Positions 1 through 7,363 of a stretch of DNA of 36,453 nt are shown piece after piece (position 1 is the stretch's first letter; every line of letters starts with the position of its first letter). The notes beneath the pieces were generated by a model. The model ran no database searches, was not told the DNA's origin, and worked only from the letters and a program-made list of their open reading frames with translations. Made by a program: the position numbers and the translations under genes. The DNA lies in assembly GCA_012270045.1 (NCBI GenBank), contig JAAXJC010000028.1:1-36453 (forward strand), given 5' to 3'. Source of the DNA: Luminiphilus sp. Lineage in GTDB: Bacteria; Pseudomonadota; Gammaproteobacteria; Pseudomonadales; Halieaceae.

Positions 1-687
1 CGACAGAAGGTGCTGGAAGTGAAAGCCATGGATATGCCGGTCGTTGTTTCCATGGGGGGTGTGGCGGCATCGGGGGGCTACTACATCGCTGCGGACGCCG
101 ACGAAATCTGGGCTCATTCGGGAACGATCACCAGAACCATTGGTGTCTTCGTTGCCTTTCCCACCGTTGAAAAGCTGAATGACTGGGCCGGCATCACACC
201 CGATGGTGTCAGCACATCGAAGCTGCCCATGGCCGCCCGGTTTGACACAGGGGTTAACCAGGAGGGCAGGAGAATCATTAACAGCATTATCGCCAATATC
301 TACGACGACTTTGTCACCCTGGTAGCTTCCGGGCGCGGCAAGACCTGGGAGGAAATCAACGGGATTGCCGGTGGCAGGGTCTGGAGTGGTGAGGACGCGC
401 TGGGCATAGGGTTGGTTGATGCCCTGGGCGGCCTGCGCGCCGCCGTCGATGCCGCGGCGGCCCGTGCCGAGCTCGATGAGTTTGACACGCTGTATTTTGG
501 CACCCCCATCAGCCCCGAACAGCAGCTGCTTGAGCAGCTTGGGCGTGAACTCGGGCAGGTCTATGTGCCCGGGCGTTCCATTGTGGCGCGGCTGTCCGAA
601 CAGCTGGCGCCCTACCTGCGCCTGGCTGACAGCCTTCAGGACCCCGGTAACATTTATGTTCGTTGCCTGGAGTGCGGGTCCTACTAG
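1..687 (+). CDS. sppA: Signal peptide peptidase SppA, C-terminal part (5' end outside window)
   Basis: Membrane-bound serine protease (peptidase family S49) that degrades cleaved signal peptides in the inner membrane. The reading frame is open from base 1, so the N-terminus lies upstream. The visible 228 residues carry the second S49 domain. The nucleophile motif AASGGYYIA puts the catalytic Ser at codon 70-72, as in the C-terminal half of the E. coli 67 kDa enzyme. The GTITRTIGVF and DGVSTSK segments and the block VWSGEDALGIGLVDALGG also match the family. The partner Lys of the Ser-Lys dyad would lie in the missing part. The stop TAG overlaps the next gene's likely GTG by one base, suggesting coupled translation. 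Family assignment is firm; full length cannot be judged. Confidence 0.93.
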   Translation, partial: RQKVLEVKAMDMPVVVSMGGVAASGGYYIAADADEIWAHSGTITRTIGVFVAFPTVEKLNDWAGITPDGVSTSKLPMAARFDTGVNQEGRRIINSIIANIYDDFVTLVASGRGKTWEEINGIAGGRVWSGEDALGIGLVDALGGLRAAVDAAAARAELDEFDTLYFGTPISPEQQLLEQLGRELGQVYVPGRSIVARLSEQLAPYLRLADSLQDPGNIYVRCLECGSY

Positions 688-1394
688 TGTTCGAAAAAGT
701 GGACCTGGAAACAGCAACGACCCCGGCCCGGGCGGCGGCGACGCTTATAGTCGTTCGCGAGGCGTCAGCTGGATTGGAGGTACTGCTGCTGCGACGTAAT
801 CCGGACCTGAAAGTTATGGCTGGGGCCTGGGTATTTCCCGGGGGCAAGGTGGACGCCGACGATGCGGGAAGCGATGCCCTGTCCAGGGCCCGCAGCGCGG
901 CCATACGGGAATTGGCTGAAGAAACCGGTCTGTCCGCGCAGTCCGATTCGCTGCTCCAGTTCTCCAGGTGGTTGACCCCCGAGGTGGTTCGTCATCGCTT
1001 CGACACCTACTTTTTCCTGGCGCCCCAAAGTCCGGCTGCGGCGGTGCAGGTTGATGGTGGTGAAATCGTAGAACACCGTTGGGTGCGGCCCGAAGACGCG
1101 GTGGCCGAGCAGGCCGCGGGCGCGCTGAAGATACCGCCGCCCACGCTGGTGTCCCTGACCGATCTGGTAGGGCACGACAGCGTGGCAGGTTTGGTAGCCG
1201 CAGTAGAAAAACGATCACCCCCGTACTTTTTCCCCCGAATTACCGAGCTGGGGGATGATCATGTTTTTTTATATCCTGGGGATTCGGGTTACGAGGCCTC
1301 GGACCCGGCCCGGGTTGCCTGTCAACACCGAACCACGATGCGGGACGGTAGGTTCAGTTACCGACGGGATTTTAGTTGGCCGGATCGGGACTGA
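687..1394 (+). CDS. Nudix hydrolase (NUDT19-like, with extended Nudix box)
   Basis: About 235 residues. It probably hydrolyses a nucleoside diphosphate-linked substrate in the cytosol; the substrate cannot be read from sequence. The Nudix signature is recognisable: PGGKVDADD followed by RELAEETGL, the latter fitting REUXEEXGU exactly. The usual GX5E spacing is stretched by roughly ten residues between the two halves. Such insertions occur in NUDT19-type proteins, some of which act on CoA derivatives, but that activity is only a suggestion here. The start is uncertain: TTG 663 and GTG 672 lie inside sppA. GTG 687, overlapping the sppA stop and 14 bases after GGAG, is the best compromise. The 3' end overlaps the convergent lipoprotein gene by 23 bases. 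Confidence 0.85.
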   Translation: MFEKVDLETATTPARAAATLIVVREASAGLEVLLLRRNPDLKVMAGAWVFPGGKVDADDAGSDALSRARSAAIRELAEETGLSAQSDSLLQFSRWLTPEVVRHRFDTYFFLAPQSPAAAVQVDGGEIVEHRWVRPEDAVAEQAAGALKIPPPTLVSLTDLVGHDSVAGLVAAVEKRSPPYFFPRITELGDDHVFLYPGDSGYEASDPARVACQHRTTMRDGRFSYRRDFSWPDRD

Positions 1395-1968
1395 CCGCCG
1401 GCAGGCGGTGAATGCTTGCTGCCATTTGCCTGCTGAAATCTTCCAGCAGCTGGTTGTAAGCCGAAGCGATGTCACTGCCCTGCAGGCTGTCTGACAGCGG
1501 CGTTTGCAGGCTGATGAGTTCACTGGCAAAGGCGCCGTCCCTATGGGTCAGCACCGTCTCTGCCACCAGGGTGGCTTCCCCGGGAACACTGCGTAAATCC
1601 TGCACCTTGATGCGTATGGTGATGTCGGGTGCTTGTCGGCTATTCCAGGGATAGGGCCGAATATCATTGGTGGGCAGCATCCGGCTCAGATTCAGGGTAA
1701 CTACTCGGGCAATAGCGGCATCCAGGGGCTCAACCCATTTTTCCCCCCCGTCGACGGTCACCGCACTGCCGCGGGAATCCCGAACCAGGTTTGATCGGGA
1801 CAGGTACTCGGGGGCTGCCACCGGCATGACACCAATCGAGGGGCCCGGTTCCCCGCTAGCCGTCGCGGCGGTGGCGTCAAGTCGGTAGTACACGGGTGGT
1901 GGCGTGCTCTGGCAGGACAGCAGCAACAGCGCCATCATTGCCAACAGCCATCGTTGGGTGCTTGTCAT
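1372..1968 (-). CDS. PqiC-like auxiliary lipoprotein of an MCE-type ABC transporter
   Basis: A 198-residue outer-membrane-type lipoprotein. The N-terminus is a lipoprotein signal with lipobox LLLLSC, placing the lipidated Cys at residue 19. The mature part fits the ABC-type transport auxiliary lipoprotein family (PqiC/DUF330-like): YYRLDA near the start, a GVMPVAAPEYLSRSNLV stretch, and a C-terminal helix. Family members sit at the outer membrane and receive the end of an MCE protein tube that moves lipids across the periplasm. The start ATG overlaps the stop of the MCE gene (ATGA) and has a strong AGGAGG just upstream inside that gene, so the two are translationally coupled. It is the last gene of the leftward transport operon. 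The role comes from family and context. Confidence 0.87.
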   Translation of the reverse strand: MTSTQRWLLAMMALLLLSCQSTPPPVYYRLDATAATASGEPGPSIGVMPVAAPEYLSRSNLVRDSRGSAVTVDGGEKWVEPLDAAIARVVTLNLSRMLPTNDIRPYPWNSRQAPDITIRIKVQDLRSVPGEATLVAETVLTHRDGAFASELISLQTPLSDSLQGSDIASAYNQLLEDFSRQMAASIHRLPAVSPDPAN

Positions 1969-2942
1969 GGTTCCTCCTCGTCCGGGCGGCCCAGCAGTAG
2001 CGACTGGGGCGACTCCTCCAGACTGCGCGTCAGGGAGTTCAGCGACCTGCTGGCCCGGGAGATCTCTGACAGGGTCATGTTCAGGTTGTACAACGTCGGT
2101 GAATCCGGTTCCAGGAACTGGGCGGCATTGGCAGCAGCCCGGTCTACGCTCTCCAGGGCCTGCTGCACCTGGCTGATGGCCTGCCGTGTTTCATCTGCAA
2201 TCAGCGGAATCTGCTGCTCTGCCACCTGTGCCGCGGCCGCGGTGCTGCTGAGTGTGGCCTCCAACTGGGGCTGAAGCTCGGTCATCATCTGCTCCAGGGT
2301 TCCTCCCACCTGGGTGACGGTTTGCAGTGCCCTGTTGGTATTTTCCGGAATCTGCTGAAACGCGTCGCTGGTGGTCAGTGCTCGAATGGCCTCAGCCGTG
2401 TCCTGCAGATTGGCGGCGAGACTGCGGAAATTCAGTGTGTTGACGTCCATGACCAGTTGGTCGAAGGGTGAGGGGATGGTTGGAATCTCGAAATAATCGG
2501 ACTCGGGAGCCCGAATCTGCACATCGGTCTCGGGGAAAAAGTCCAGTTGCACGAACAGCAGTCCGGTCAGGAAGCTTGAATTGTTGAGCTGTGCCCGCAG
2601 CCCCGAGTTGATCAACTCCGGCCCCAGGGTGGCATCACCATCCGCCACGGCGGCGACTGCGGCTCTGTTGATCACGGCCTCCACCTCCATCCAGAGTCGC
2701 AGTTCGTCCGCATGCTGCAGGCGAACACGTATGTCGGTCACCTGGCCAATATTGGCGCCTCGGATAGCCACCGGCGCGCCTTTGTTGAGGCCATAGACGG
2801 AACCATCGAACACCATGATGACGGTCTGGGAATTTGCTGCGTCATAGCCCCGGCCGGCCACCAGCAGGGTGGCCACGACGGCTATCGCCAGGGCGGAAAG
2901 AATGAAGGCCCCCAGCAGGGTATGGGCGGTTTTTTCCTGCAT
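1965..2942 (-). CDS. MCE (MlaD-family) lipid-binding protein
   Basis: About 325 residues, anchored in the inner membrane by one N-terminal helix (residues 8-30) with the rest periplasmic. An MCE domain follows (about residues 35-115), with the typical VYGLNKGAPVAIRGANIGQV segment. The C-terminal half is a long Ala/Gln-rich helical region, probably coiled coil, ending with SLLLGRPDEEEP as in many MCE proteins of transport operons. It would form the ring or tube carrying lipids between the permease and the outer-membrane lipoprotein. I place the start at the ATG at 2942, which has GGGAGG about 11 bases upstream. An in-frame ATG at 2978 would add 12 polar residues and overlap the ATPase gene. 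It is longer than E. coli MlaD (183 aa) and far shorter than PqiB. Confidence 0.88.
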   Translation of the reverse strand: MQEKTAHTLLGAFILSALAIAVVATLLVAGRGYDAANSQTVIMVFDGSVYGLNKGAPVAIRGANIGQVTDIRVRLQHADELRLWMEVEAVINRAAVAAVADGDATLGPELINSGLRAQLNNSSFLTGLLFVQLDFFPETDVQIRAPESDYFEIPTIPSPFDQLVMDVNTLNFRSLAANLQDTAEAIRALTTSDAFQQIPENTNRALQTVTQVGGTLEQMMTELQPQLEATLSSTAAAAQVAEQQIPLIADETRQAISQVQQALESVDRAAANAAQFLEPDSPTLYNLNMTLSEISRASRSLNSLTRSLEESPQSLLLGRPDEEEP

Positions 2943-2949
2943 GTTCCGG

Positions 2950-3714
2950 TTAGCCTCCCGCAGCCGCTTCAGCAACACCCCGGTTCAAAAACTCCCGGAC
3001 GACCGCGTGTTCACTGTGTGTTTTGAGATGCAATGGTGGCCCTTGGTCCAGTAGCGTACGGCTTTCATTGTCGAGATAGATGGACTGGGTGGCAATGGCA
3101 AATATGCTGTCCAGTTCGTGTGTCACCATGACAACGGTAGCGCCCATACTTTCTGCGAGGGTGGCAATGAGGTCATCCAGCCGTCGTGAACTGATCGGAT
3201 CCAGGCCGGCGGAAGGTTCATCAAAGAACAGGAATTCCGGGTCCAGCATAATGGCTCTGGCGAGCGCGGCCCGTTTACGCATACCGCCACTGATCTCCGA
3301 GGGGAAGTAATTCTGATATCCCTCCAGGCCGACCAGGGACAGTTTCAGGCTGATAAGGTCAGCCCGTTCACCGGCGCTCATGCTGGTGTACAGCTCAAGC
3401 GGTAAGGACAGGTTTTCTGCCAGTGTCATGGCGCTGATCAGTGCGCCCTGCTGGAAGGTGACACCCCAGTTCATGCGCATTTGGCGCTGCCGGGCGGGTG
3501 AGGCGCTGGTGTAGCTGTGTCCGTCATACTGGACCTCGCCCCGGGCGGGGTGCTCCAGTCCCAGCATATTCCGTAGCAGCGTACTTTTGCCGCAGCCGCT
3601 ACCGCCCATAATAACGAAGACGTCACCGGCAGCGACCGTGAAGGTGAGATCCCGCTGGATGACGCGTTCACCATAGGCCAGCGTGAGATCAGTGACTTCA
3701 ATTGCAGCGCCCAT
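2950..3714 (-). CDS. MlaF-like ABC transporter ATPase
   Basis: A 254-residue cytoplasmic ATPase that powers the MCE lipid transporter. All ABC motifs are visible: Walker A GGSGCGKST (residues 37-45), Q-loop in VTFQQGALI, signature SEISGGMRKR (139-148; the SGGM variant is typical of the Mla/Ttg2 branch), Walker B FLFFDEP (161-167) with Glu166, and switch His199. It lies between the permease, whose stop is one base from this start, and the MCE protein. I therefore infer a permease-ATPase-MCE complex like MlaFED. Substrate and direction, phospholipid or another hydrophobic molecule, cannot be read from sequence. The start has only a weak Shine-Dalgarno, consistent with coupling to the permease gene. 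Confidence 0.93.
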   Translation of the reverse strand: MGAAIEVTDLTLAYGERVIQRDLTFTVAAGDVFVIMGGSGCGKSTLLRNMLGLEHPARGEVQYDGHSYTSASPARQRQMRMNWGVTFQQGALISAMTLAENLSLPLELYTSMSAGERADLISLKLSLVGLEGYQNYFPSEISGGMRKRAALARAIMLDPEFLFFDEPSAGLDPISSRRLDDLIATLAESMGATVVMVTHELDSIFAIATQSIYLDNESRTLLDQGPPLHLKTHSEHAVVREFLNRGVAEAAAGG

Positions 3715-3715
3715 G

Positions 3716-4840
3716 TCAGATGTCCAAAAGTTGGCAGGTGATGTTTACCAGCGCATCGGCGATGATGAGATACACCATGGCCACCACCACCGCTTCGGTC
3801 GTTGCTTTACCCACTCCTTCTGAGTTGCGGCCTGAGTTGAGCCCGGCCCGGCAACCAGCGATACCGACCAGGGCGCCAAACAGGACGGCTTTAACCAGGC
3901 CGACGACCAGATGGGATGGATACAGCGCCACCTGCACTTCAGACCAGTATTGGAGTGGCGTAACACCGAGTCCGCTGGACACCAGCCCGCCGCCCAATAT
4001 GCCAAGGACATTGGCAAACAGGGTCAACAGGGGGGTCATGACAATAATGGCCGCCACCCGGGGCAGGACCAGGAACTCCATGGGTGACACCCCCAGAATC
4101 TCTATGGCATCGACCTCTTCGTTGACGCGCATGGTGCCCAGTTGTGCGGCGTAGGCTGCGCCGGTTCGGCCCGCCAGAATAATCGCCGTCATCAGCGGCC
4201 CCATCTCCCGCAGTACACCGACGGTTACAAGATCGGCGACATATATCTCGGCTCCGAATTGCTTGAGTTGTACGGCCCCGAGATAGCCCAAAATCAGACC
4301 CACCAGGAAACTGGTCAGGCTGATGATGGGGAGGGCGTTGGGGCCTGTCTGGTAGCAGAAGTAAAGGAAGTCCCTGAACCTGCCCCTGCCTGAGCCGGTA
4401 ACCAGCCCCAGCCCGGACAGCACCAGGGCGCCGACAAACTCAGCCAGGTTGGCTACCTCACTGCCAACGGCTCGACTCGCGACCCGGGGGTCCAGCCTGG
4501 ACCAGAGTGTGGCGCGGGAGTTACCGCCTTGCTGGTCTTCCGGGCGCGCACCGGGGACCGCATCGGCCAGCACCAGTAACTTGCTGACTCCGGGGGGCCA
4601 ATCCTCCAGAAGCTCCAGGTCCTGGGCGTTAGCCCGTGCCCGCAGTGCGATGGCGGCCTGGACCAGTGTGGAATCCCAGTCATCGACCTCGCTGGCGTCG
4701 ATTTTCAGGGTGCTGAGGCTACCGATATCGGCCAGCAGGGTGGCGGGGTCCAAGTGCGATGTTTCCCTGCTCCAACTGCCCCTGAGTACGACCAGCATTT
4801 GCCGGTCATCGCGGGTTATCTGCAGGGCATCGTCGCGCAT
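3716..4840 (-). CDS. MlaE-family permease with fused N-terminal STAS domain
   Basis: A 374-residue inner-membrane permease. Residues 1-95 look like a STAS domain (EVDDWDSTLVQAAI corresponds to the usual conserved loop and helix). In E. coli the equivalent is a separate protein, MlaB, that binds and stabilises the ATPase. Residues 125-374 form the MlaE fold with several membrane segments and the conserved cytoplasmic segment GTMRVNEEVDAIEILGVSP, which docks on the ATPase. The fusion means no separate mlaB gene is needed, and none is seen. No soluble MlaC shuttle is present either, while a PqiC-like lipoprotein is, so this is a distinct MCE system from E. coli Mla. Such STAS-permease fusions are known elsewhere. 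It follows the DUF3806 gene by 10 bases. Confidence 0.91.
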   Translation of the reverse strand: MRDDALQITRDDRQMLVVLRGSWSRETSHLDPATLLADIGSLSTLKIDASEVDDWDSTLVQAAIALRARANAQDLELLEDWPPGVSKLLVLADAVPGARPEDQQGGNSRATLWSRLDPRVASRAVGSEVANLAEFVGALVLSGLGLVTGSGRGRFRDFLYFCYQTGPNALPIISLTSFLVGLILGYLGAVQLKQFGAEIYVADLVTVGVLREMGPLMTAIILAGRTGAAYAAQLGTMRVNEEVDAIEILGVSPMEFLVLPRVAAIIVMTPLLTLFANVLGILGGGLVSSGLGVTPLQYWSEVQVALYPSHLVVGLVKAVLFGALVGIAGCRAGLNSGRNSEGVGKATTEAVVVAMVYLIIADALVNITCQLLDI

Positions 4841-4850
4841 AATCCGACGG

Positions 4851-5411
4851 TTAGCGCCAGTTGGCGCCGGGCAACTTGGCTAGCGTCCGTTCGAGATTGC
4901 TTTGGTAGATGTCCTCAACAGCCCGTTCATGTCCCGCCTCCCAGCGGCGGGATATCATCGTGACCGGGAACAGAAATGTTTCGCTCTCCCGGTAGCGCAG
5001 CGCCCGTGATCGACCGGCACGATCCCGGTAGACCACCCAATCCATGTTAAGCTCCGCCGCGAACAGGTCGCCCAGGACCACCCCGAGGGCTTGCAGTTGC
5101 AGACTGTCATCCGCGGTGACCAGACCCCGGTCCAGGATGCGCTGCAGCGTGACGAGATCCCGGTCTGGCTGTCCCGTGAGTTGTGCCCCCAGGCGATTGG
5201 CCCAGGCCTCTACATCGGCTCGCTGTGCGGCCATGAATTGCTGGTCAATGGCGCTCAACGGTTCGATGCGTCGATCGACGGTTTCCGGCGAGAAGGAACC
5301 CTGCGCCCAGGCCGGTGTCCCAAGAAACAGTAGAAATAGGGTCAAGGCGGATAAACATAGCCTTGCCGCCGGTTGTATCGAGTGAATTGAAATGGATAAT
5401 TGCGCGATCAT
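4851..5411 (-). CDS. DUF3806 secreted protein heading the MCE operon
   Basis: About 186 residues. The ATG at 5411 gives a clean Sec signal peptide (hydrophobic core LSALTLFLLFLG, likely cleavage after AWA, residue 36). Upstream in-frame codons would run into dapA and spoil the signal, so the longer frame to 5546 is rejected. The C-terminal half carries the pattern of DUF3806: LGVVLGDLFAAELNMDWV, then ALRYRESETFLFPVTMISRR. The biochemical function of DUF3806 is not known to me. The protein is probably periplasmic. Its gene lies 10 bases before the STAS-permease gene in the same direction, so it is probably co-transcribed with the MCE transporter. A role in that pathway is a guess from position. 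The ribosome binding site is weak. Confidence 0.72.
   Translation of the reverse strand: MIAQLSISIHSIQPAARLCLSALTLFLLFLGTPAWAQGSFSPETVDRRIEPLSAIDQQFMAAQRADVEAWANRLGAQLTGQPDRDLVTLQRILDRGLVTADDSLQLQALGVVLGDLFAAELNMDWVVYRDRAGRSRALRYRESETFLFPVTMISRRWEAGHERAVEDIYQSNLERTLAKLPGANWR
5373..5400 (+). promoter_or_regulatory. Candidate sigma-70 promoter for dapA
   Basis: TTGTAT (5373-5378) and GATAAT (5395-5400) are separated by 16 bases. The -10 matches five of six consensus positions and the -35 three. Initiation near 5407 would give a leader of about 47 bases to the dapA ATG. The element lies inside the signal-peptide codons of the divergent DUF3806 gene. A short inverted repeat, TGCCA-N2-TGGCA at 5425-5436, sits between it and dapA and could be an operator. 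All of this is pattern matching only. Confidence 0.35.
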
Positions 5412-5453: not shown

Positions 5454-6326
5454 ATGATAACCGGAAGTATTGTTGCGCTGGTAACGCCCATGTCTCCCAA
5501 CGGCGAGGTGGACAGCGAGGCGCTGTCGAAGCTGATTGAATATCACATCGACTCGGGTACCTCAGCATTGGGTATCGCCGGAACGACTGGCGAGAGCGCA
5601 ACCCTGACCATGAAGGAGCATGCCGATGTTATCCGCTTTGCTGTCGAGTGTGCTGCGGATCGGATACCGGTGATAGCCGGTACTGGCTCAAACTCCACCC
5701 ACGAGGCCATTGAACTGACCGTTGCCGCCGCCGAAGCGGGGGCACATTCGGTTCTGCTGGTCACCCCTTATTACAACCGGCCTCCCCAGGAAGGCCTCTA
5801 CCAGCATTTTTGCCAGGTGGCCGGGTCGGTCAATATCCCCATCATCTTGTATAACGTGCCGGGGCGCACCGGAGTGGATCTGAGCAACGATACCGTCATG
5901 CGTCTCAGTGAGGTGGGTAATATCAATGGCCTCAAGGATGCCACCGGGGATGTCGCTCGGGGCGCAGACTTGATCGCCAGACTACCCGACACCTTCGCTG
6001 TTTACTCCGGGGACGACGCAACCGCCCTGGAATTAATGCGCCACGGAGCCAAGGGCAATGTATCCGTGACCGCCAATATTGCCGCGGCCCAGGTGGCAGA
6101 TGTATGCAGGCTGGCCCTGGCTGGAGATTTCCCAGCCGCCGCCGCTATAGACAGCCAGCTCTCCGCGTTAAATGACGCATTATTCATTGAGTCCAATCCT
6201 GTCCCTGTGAAATGGGCCATGGCAGAATTGGGCATGGTTCAGGAGGGCATACGTTTGCCGCTGGTTACGCTTTCGTCCGATCATCACGCAGCGCTTCGCG
6301 CCGCCATGCAGCAGGCTGGATTATGA
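5454..6326 (+). CDS. dapA: 4-Hydroxy-tetrahydrodipicolinate synthase DapA
   Basis: A 290-residue cytosolic enzyme condensing pyruvate with aspartate semialdehyde, the committed step of diaminopimelate and lysine synthesis. The active-site set falls at the same numbers as in E. coli: Thr44-Thr45 in GTTGES, Tyr107 in YYNRPPQ, Tyr133 in YNVPGRTG, Arg138, and the Schiff-base Lys161 in GLKDATGD. The length is normal. The ATG at 5454 is the first residue expected by homology, although no good Shine-Dalgarno is visible. It is followed by bamC with an ATGA overlap, the usual gammaproteobacterial linkage. The rest of the succinylase branch (dapD, dapC, dapE) is some 6-10 kb away in the opposite direction. 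Confidence 0.98.
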   Translation: MITGSIVALVTPMSPNGEVDSEALSKLIEYHIDSGTSALGIAGTTGESATLTMKEHADVIRFAVECAADRIPVIAGTGSNSTHEAIELTVAAAEAGAHSVLLVTPYYNRPPQEGLYQHFCQVAGSVNIPIILYNVPGRTGVDLSNDTVMRLSEVGNINGLKDATGDVARGADLIARLPDTFAVYSGDDATALELMRHGAKGNVSVTANIAAAQVADVCRLALAGDFPAAAAIDSQLSALNDALFIESNPVPVKWAMAELGMVQEGIRLPLVTLSSDHHAALRAAMQQAGL

Positions 6327-7363
6327 CAGGTTCCAGAGTGGGGTTGCTGTTATTGCCATGGGTACTGGTGCTGGGCGGTTGCAGCTGGATTTACGGTGAG
6401 GACGGATTGTTCCCCGATAACACCGATAGGTATCAGGAAGCTCCCGAACTGGCAGTGATTGAGGTCCCCGACGATGTCAACACAGTGGCCCTGGACGCCA
6501 CCTACCCGATCCCTGATGTGCAACAGAGTTTTTTGTTGGAGAGTGAGTTCGAGGTACCCCGGCCGACGCCCCTGACGGGCTCCAATGCTTACGACACGGT
6601 GCGTATCCAGCGACTGGGCGATGAAAGCTGGGCGCTGGTGGCGGTTGCCCCGGGGCAACTCTGGCCCCAGGTACGGGCCTTTCTGACCTCTTCCCAGATC
6701 GGTGTCGCCGGATCAGACGCCGAGTCCGGGTTGATTGATACCCAGTATGTCACTCTCCAGGATCGACCCCTGCCAACCCGATTTCGTTTCCAGGTTGATA
6801 CCGGAGTGCAGCGCAACACTTCCGAATTACACATTGTGCAACAGAACCAGTCCGGCACCGATGCGCCCTGGCCGGCGGCGTCAGATGACCTGGAACTTGA
6901 GCGCACCATGCTGCGCAACATAGCCCAGTTTATTGCCAACAGCGCCGAGGCGGCTCCCGTTTCGATGATGGCGGACCGGGCCATGGGGGATCAGGGCCGC
7001 GTGACCCTTGAGGACAGCGAAACCCAGACCCGACTGGTGTTGTTGCTGCCCTTCAACCGGGCCTGGGCTTCCCTGAACAAGGCGCTGCCAGAGGCGGGCT
7101 TTGCCATTGATGACAAAAACCGATCCGAGGGCCTGTTCTACCTCACGTTTGTGGGGCCCCAGGAAGAGGGCGATGGCGGTTGGTTCGACTGGATGTGGGG
7201 CGGCGAGGATGAGCATCCTCTGGCCGACCAGCAGTATCTGCTGAAAGTGGCATCGGTTGAGGAAAGCCGCATGGTGATTTCCCTGATGGCGAGCGATGGC
7301 GGGCCGGTCGAGCGCAGGGATCAGCAGGCCTTGTTGACCCTGGTCAAAGGCACTATCAACTGA
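6323..7363 (+). CDS. bamC: Outer membrane protein assembly factor BamC (lipoprotein)
   Basis: A 346-residue lipoprotein subunit of the BAM complex that inserts beta-barrel proteins into the outer membrane. The start ATG overlaps the dapA stop (ATGA). It gives a lipoprotein signal with lipobox VLGGC (Cys20), so the upstream in-frame extension from 6212 inside dapA is rejected. After the Cys there is a flexible N-terminal region, then two helix-grip-like domains (about residues 95-215 and 225-340). The match to E. coli BamC (344 aa) rests on length, architecture and the dapA-bamC linkage more than on sequence identity, since BamC diverges fast. The loop GPQEEGDGGWFDWMWGG in the second domain is acidic and aromatic. 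Confidence 0.87.
   Translation: MTGSRVGLLLLPWVLVLGGCSWIYGEDGLFPDNTDRYQEAPELAVIEVPDDVNTVALDATYPIPDVQQSFLLESEFEVPRPTPLTGSNAYDTVRIQRLGDESWALVAVAPGQLWPQVRAFLTSSQIGVAGSDAESGLIDTQYVTLQDRPLPTRFRFQVDTGVQRNTSELHIVQQNQSGTDAPWPAASDDLELERTMLRNIAQFIANSAEAAPVSMMADRAMGDQGRVTLEDSETQTRLVLLLPFNRAWASLNKALPEAGFAIDDKNRSEGLFYLTFVGPQEEGDGGWFDWMWGGEDEHPLADQQYLLKVASVEESRMVISLMASDGGPVERRDQQALLTLVKGTIN

Follow-up and report, generated by a model that had tools for sequence, protein, structure and literature searches.

We analyzed a 36,453-nucleotide stretch of Luminiphilus DNA (hereafter the window), which makes up the whole of contig C159 in a draft genome (G000) of 3.36 Mb. Open reading frame (ORF) calling revealed five consecutive minus-strand genes at 1372-5411, encoding a DUF3806 protein, a permease, an ATPase, an MCE-domain protein and a lipoprotein. 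We consider it very likely that two units became neighbours here: genes 2-5, which would form a lipid transporter of the Mpc (Mla-Pqi chimeric) type, and an independent, secreted DUF3806 protein that belongs to the neighbourhood of dapA and bamC. Outside the window's family (Halieaceae), no MlaE-type match was found beside any of 57 DUF3806 genes in the 2.2-6.3 kb read. Within the genus, 33 congeners carry DUF3806, and the assemblies of 32 of these gave no MCE-domain match. DUF3806 is also missing from 20 of the 21 extra-family genomes that carry a close Mpc-type permease (the remaining genome, G106, has DUF3806 on another contig). A preliminary description of this locus had suggested that DUF3806 could be an accessory periplasmic subunit of the transporter; the first two of these counts leave that suggestion unsupported, and our co-occurrence survey found DUF3806 mostly apart from MCE operons, which argues against it. 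The survey separates DUF3806 from MCE function.

Genes 2-5 and the Mpc system

From the DUF3806 gene to the lipoprotein gene, the intergenic gaps are 10, 1 and 7 bp, followed by a 4-bp overlap. The run of five leftward genes with gaps of at most 10 bases had been described with exact coordinates, and Pfam backs each gene; the placement of DUF3806 at the head of an MCE operon whose permease is fused to STAS is likewise borne out by the ORFs, Pfam, relatives and predicted fold. The mpcE-like permease (374 residues; 3716-4840, minus strand) carries an MlaE domain (PF02405, E = 9.9e-73) behind an N-terminal STAS domain. In the window permease alone, STAS_2 falls below the curated cut-off (E = 0.0044); with the threshold set at E = 1, it is matched by 25 of the 26 permeases in an alignment, the window's among them (best E = 7e-11). 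An AlphaFold2 model of the permease (mean predicted local distance difference test (pLDDT) score 74.9) matches MlaE and STAS chains, and its N-terminal part resembles short MlaFEB-complex chains and SpoIIAA-type antagonists (Foldseek E = 0.02-0.3, probability mostly 1.0). Relatives and modelled fold thus support a predicted fusion of a STAS domain to the permease N-terminus, the signal for which is weak in the window alone.

The mpcF-like ATPase (254 residues; 2950-3714, minus strand; PF00005, ABC_tran, E = 6e-30) has MlaF as its best NCBIfam model, at 170 bits versus a cut-off of 441. The mpcD-like protein (1965-2942, minus strand) has a single MCE domain (PF02470, MlaD/MCE, E = 1.9e-9) and a long C-terminal tail; it is 325 residues long from its ATG, with a GTG at 2978 as a longer alternative start. 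This protein matches the PqiB structure 5uvn (E = 6e-10) and aligns near full length with PDB 13hr_I (312 residues, E = 1.2e-7), the C-terminal ...GR included. Eight chains of 13HR, a solved structure of a protein with one MCE domain and a long tail, are listed. The last gene (1372-1968, minus strand) encodes an mpcA-like (PqiC-like) lipoprotein of 198 residues (PF03886, ABC_trans_aux, E = 2.3e-26) with a lipobox, LLLLSC, recognized by eye and a match to the PqiC structure 8q2c (E = 1.3e-6). A whole-genome profile search found a single MlaE-family match and a single MCE-domain match in the window genome.

According to a 2025 paper, Mpc is the product of mpcEFDA in Brucella abortus, where an MlaE-like permease with an N-terminal STAS domain, an MlaF-like ATPase, an MCE protein with an extended helical tail and a PqiC-like lipoprotein co-purify as one complex (PMC12436622). 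Its abstract reports conservation in Hyphomicrobiales, and the word "gammaproteobacteria" does not occur in its main text (PMC12436622). On gene content and order, genes 2-5 are assigned to this known type and are not a new mixture. The mixture of Mla and Pqi parts noted in the preliminary description was confirmed, and it corresponds to the published Mpc system (PMC12436622). By homology, the STAS-permease and ATPase would form an ATP-driven pump of the ABC type in the inner membrane. The MCE protein may provide a ring with a periplasmic needle, and the PqiC-like lipoprotein may cap it at the outer membrane. Lipids, the cargo suggested by Mpc, Mla and Pqi, would then move along a continuous bridge between both membranes with no shuttle; the assembly of these parts into one complex is likewise modelled on those three systems.

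The set is not confined to Halieaceae. In a sample of 293 genomes drawn evenly from the order, a permease matching the window's at E <= 1e-70 is carried by 21 genomes of other families. An ATPase and an MCE gene adjoin it in 19 of 19 loci read from these genomes, and a lipoprotein was found in both extra-family loci examined for one (G043 = L101 and G044 = L102). A literature search for MCE, MlaE, STAS domain and PqiC together retrieved no paper. A separate search for literature since 2024 gave, beside PMC12436622, no paper holding even two of its four terms, and in another neither "Luminiphilus" nor "Halieaceae" occurred in a paper among the matches listed. PA3211-PA3214 is a similar operon of Pseudomonas; a search with these tags returned mostly unrelated entries among the matches listed.

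The mpc cassette in Halieaceae and Luminiphilus

We compared 80 named loci, the best 80 of 197 relatives by DUF3806, with Luminiphilus and other Halieaceae closest. A dapA gene lies divergent from DUF3806 in 80 of 80, and the four-gene cassette is present in 26 (23 complete, 2 cut by a contig end, plus L105). No cassette was found in 45 loci in which the sequence behind DUF3806 runs for 1.5 kb or more, and nine are too short to judge. All 10 genomes sampled from other genera of the family share the order dapA / DUF3806-permease-ATPase-MCE (their loci stop short of the lipoprotein), and the four-gene set is present in many Halieaceae, among them cultured Haliea and Halioglobus strains (for example Haliea salexigens, L158, and Halioglobus pacificus, L172). 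Because other family genera share the order and 26 of the 80 named loci have the cassette, the best reading of these comparisons is that the arrangement is ancestral in Halieaceae and that the cassette was lost in Luminiphilus. Eight named loci outside Luminiphilus (L152, L164, L165, L167, L173, L179, L180 and L182) also have no Mpc cassette behind dapA-DUF3806, so that the lack of the cassette, whether by loss or from the outset, extends beyond Luminiphilus.

Among 36 congeners of the window genome, 33 have DUF3806 (the three without it are 68-82% complete), while an MlaE-type permease and an MCE domain were each found in one genome, G034 in both cases. In most cassette-less congeners, the gene that comes after DUF3806 is a NUDIX gene, which in the window (663-1394, plus strand; Pfam) lies tail to tail with the lipoprotein gene. 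We searched 38 intergenic stretches between DUF3806 and NUDIX with the lipoprotein, the E-values applying to this small set, and found mpcA relics in three: L107 (E = 7e-15), L109 (E = 7e-13) and, more weakly, L113 (E = 3e-5). The relics at L107:8621-8812 and L109:8606-8812 correspond to the last 65-70 mpcA codons, the rest of the gene being gone; that of L113 is a 27-residue match. The best match of reversed-query controls was 0.005. Permease, ATPase or MCE queries on the same set gave no match at 0.05. Further decay was seen by eye in L110. These truncated relics, read from their sequence, mark deletion of the cassette. Luminiphilus offers a natural experiment, in which close relatives exist with and without any MCE system, deletion scars can be seen and YhdP persists in 31 of 36 congeners.

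A genus tree groups the two Mpc-bearing genomes, the window's and G034, with L026 and L027 in a clade nested inside the genus (support 100); this nesting requires that the cassette was lost several times, or that it was lost and then regained. If there was no regain, about five independent losses are implied. The cassette may instead have disappeared in a single loss at the base of Luminiphilus, returned to its old site in an ancestor of the window and the HTCC2080 group through recombination with another member of Halieaceae, and been lost again in the HTCC2080 group. This scenario has the merit of fewer events, and the conserved flanking genes offer recombination a substrate. However, a cassette tree does not nest the window and G034 in one genus but sets them on a branch of their own, long and deep, within the Halieaceae clade (whole-clade support 100), and cassette identities to other genera are comparable to the identities seen for the flanking genes. 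In addition, the weak relic of L113, which belongs to another clade (with L111), would require an older cassette. We therefore regard loss and regain as fairly unlikely and favour repeated loss of an ancestral cassette: in a Halieaceae ancestor the mpc cassette would have come to lie behind DUF3806, probably being transcribed through it, and in Luminiphilus it would later have been deleted, probably repeatedly, leaving DUF3806 intact under purifying selection.

DUF3806 as a probably independent protein

The DUF3806 gene (4851-5411, minus strand) encodes 186 residues that match PF12713 at E = 1.6e-24 (85.9 bits versus a curated cut-off of 21). By eye, its N-terminus is signal-peptide-like (...LGTPAWA|Q) without a lipobox cysteine, and the protein looks secreted. 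An AlphaFold2 model built from 57 sequences (mean pLDDT 84.9) matches the C-terminal part of Bacteroides BT_1490 (3HLZ; Z 17.2, root-mean-square deviation 1.9 over 129 residues), and a profile search also retrieves the 3HLZ chain (E = 2e-4). BT_1490 is thus like DUF3806 in fold and profile, but differs in an extra N-terminal half that DUF3806 does not have. Matches below 3HLZ were treated as chance (next-best Z 4.4). A PDB sequence search with the window DUF3806 alone gave no match, and a literature search found no paper under the name DUF3806 in the library searched.

In the order sample, DUF3806 is present in 69 of 293 genomes, 12 within the family and 57 outside it. The neighbourhoods of all 57 extra-family genes were read (2.2-3.3 kb in 18 and 3.0-6.3 kb in 39). 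DUF3806 is divergent from dapA in 43 of them, spread over nine families; the other 14 have neither dapA nor MlaE beside it, and ORF lists of four dapA-less loci (L200, L202, L207 and L217), compared by eye, gave no shared partner. A phylum sample has DUF3806 in 6 of 398 genomes, the window's own included; in the roughly 3.2 kb covered, its four loci from other orders gave no match to dapA, MlaE, ATPase or MCE. In the window, dapA (5454-6326, plus strand; PF00701, E = 2e-99) is followed by bamC (NlpB/DapX lipoprotein; 6323-7363, plus strand, start codon provisional; PF06804, E = 7.6e-33). Because the divergent dapA-bamC unit is its most constant partner, DUF3806 may, as a weak guess, serve in periplasmic envelope housekeeping linked to dapA. 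It lies divergently beside dapA-bamC in much of the order and would require no MCE machine.

The start codons of DUF3806 and dapA are 42 bp apart in the window; in other families, at the 43 loci where DUF3806 is linked to dapA, the aligned regions of the two genes are 151-1023 bp apart. Within the first 14 DUF3806 codons, DNA at 5371-5404 reads on the plus strand as TTGTAT-N16-GATAAT and is conserved at >=80% in a 40-locus Luminiphilus-set alignment that includes the window (CGCAATTATCCA, ACAACC); we propose it as a candidate dapA promoter. A consensus promoter scan did not list this element. The sites that the scan did list (3 promoters and 6 terminators, versus 1.9 and 3.7 expected by chance) were not used. 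DUF3806 and the permease lie 10 bp apart both in the window and in L105 and, judging from this gap in the window, the mpc genes are probably transcribed through DUF3806 from its promoter.

DUF3806 might still be an accessory subunit of Mpc that was recruited in Halieaceae, with an older, Mpc-independent role explaining its survival elsewhere. It looks secreted, which would place it in the right compartment, and it directly precedes the permease in 11 of 11 permease-bearing family genomes of the order sample, the window's own included, so that its position before the permease, as first described for the window, is common to them all. The twelfth family genome with DUF3806, G016 (HTCC2080), has no permease match. 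Against recruitment stand the congeners without an MCE match and the close Mpc-type genomes of other families without DUF3806 (both counted above), and selection is not visibly relaxed when Mpc is absent: the ratio of nonsynonymous to synonymous substitution rates (dN/dS) of mature DUF3806 is 0.03-0.25 in Mpc-less pairs (12 of 13 hand-picked pairs computable) and 0.11-0.23 in five Mpc-bearing pairs. These ratios indicate that DUF3806 is under purifying selection without Mpc. Across the genus and order samples, DUF3806 was not consistently present with Mpc and absent without it. We thus judge recruitment as a subunit quite unlikely and prefer two neighbouring, independent units.

Several points weigh against this preference. 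Complete linkage of DUF3806 and Mpc in the family (11 of 11), together with the 10-bp gap, also fits a functional link, and DUF3806 dN/dS is mostly above that of DapA and BamC. In 25 named loci of other genera, DUF3806 lies 14-165 bp from the nearest candidate permease start, which makes read-through less certain there. Four DUF3806-bearing genomes (G126, G135, G163 and G291) have a weaker permease match (E = 6e-55 to 8e-50 and 3e-48); these matches sit on contigs other than that of DUF3806. Many relatives are incomplete metagenome-assembled genomes (54-100% complete), and the 80 named loci, having been baited with DUF3806, cannot reveal its loss. Finally, the likeness to Brucella Mpc is one of gene content and order, not of compared sequence.

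We also considered that a foreign MCE cassette had recently inserted behind DUF3806 in the window's lineage and nowhere else. This reading, first suggested by the genus alone (the permease is unseen in the stretch covered in 26 of 27 same-genus loci, of which L023 covers only about 0.35 kb behind DUF3806), is highly improbable and was rejected after the order survey, given the same site and order in the 10 sampled family genomes of other genera, in Haliea and in Halioglobus, and the mpcA relics in sister genomes.

Lone MlaC and comparison with known systems

The preliminary description had also noted no MlaC-like shuttle. This is true of the operon; elsewhere the window genome has both an mlaC gene (G000:C153:2142-2954, L228) and, on another contig, an MlaA gene (G000:C28:1827-2393). 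The mlaC gene has murA on one side and, on the other, a Na/Ca-exchanger gene with a SIS-CBS gene behind it (Pfam), an arrangement that leaves no space for mlaFED. Read as murA, yrbG and kdsD, these neighbours look like the usual mla locus of E. coli. Five other loci have the same layout, judging their neighbours by eye: L230 (G006), L231 (G031), L232 (G046), L233 (G048) and L235 (G054); in L234 (G052), MlaC is located elsewhere. In the genus, MlaC is present in 30 of 36 congeners and MlaA in 28, and both occur in 23 of the 35 congeners without an MCE match, including the single-contig genomes G006 and G031. The cultured strain HTCC2080 (G016), which lacks the cassette, is one with MlaC and MlaA matches and no MCE match. 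Those 35 gave no match to an MCE domain of any kind, and MlaFED was not found in Luminiphilus. G046, G048, G052 and G054, from other families and 96-99% complete, likewise have MlaA and MlaC and no MCE match. We do not claim the lone MlaC as unreported.

This lone MlaA/MlaC set raises the specific question of what MlaC can deliver to. Tentatively, MlaC might hand lipid to a non-MCE acceptor in the inner membrane or, in the window species, to Mpc. We hold this reading as a whole to be less likely than not; if true, either acceptor would define a new route of lipid traffic. Neither the window genome nor any of the 36 congeners gave a TamB match; TamB is present in 14 of 21 genomes of other families. 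Since it is also missing from the Mpc-bearing window genome and G034, TamB absence does not track Mpc loss. YhdP, found in 31 of 36 congeners as well as in the window genome, may carry lipid traffic that is otherwise shared with MCE systems.

Compared with Mla (MlaFEDB-MlaC-MlaA), the window set shares an MlaE-type permease, an MlaF-type ATPase, an MCE protein and a STAS domain; it differs in the predicted fusion of STAS to the permease, the long MCE tail, the PqiC-like lipoprotein and an operon with no shuttle. With neither mlaC nor a separate MlaB (its STAS domain being fused), the operon is not of the mlaFEDCB form. With Pqi (PqiABC) it has in common the PqiC-like lipoprotein and an MCE domain nearest in sequence to one of PqiB, but an ATP-driven MlaE/MlaF core stands in place of PqiA. 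The one MCE match genome-wide sets it apart from a Pqi system, which combines a PqiA membrane protein and a multi-MCE PqiB; the window protein has one MCE domain versus three in PqiB, as given in PMC12436622. PDB 13HR chain I ("Mce/MlaD domain-containing protein") is matched nearly end to end by the window MCE protein, tail included.

The likeness to B. abortus Mpc, as described in PMC12436622, extends to gene content and order, with permease, ATPase, MCE and lipoprotein genes following one another in both, a long-tailed MCE protein (331 residues in B. abortus versus 325 in the window) and an operon without MlaC in both, the window operon being also without MlaA. The window set differs in that it is gammaproteobacterial and headed by a DUF3806 gene beside dapA, and in that its genome keeps MlaC and MlaA elsewhere, whereas B. 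abortus is reported there to have no detectable MlaC homologue (PMC12436622). Taken as Mpc-type, the sets described here would widen the known range of such lipid bridges to one gammaproteobacterial order, taking in Halieaceae and further families within it.

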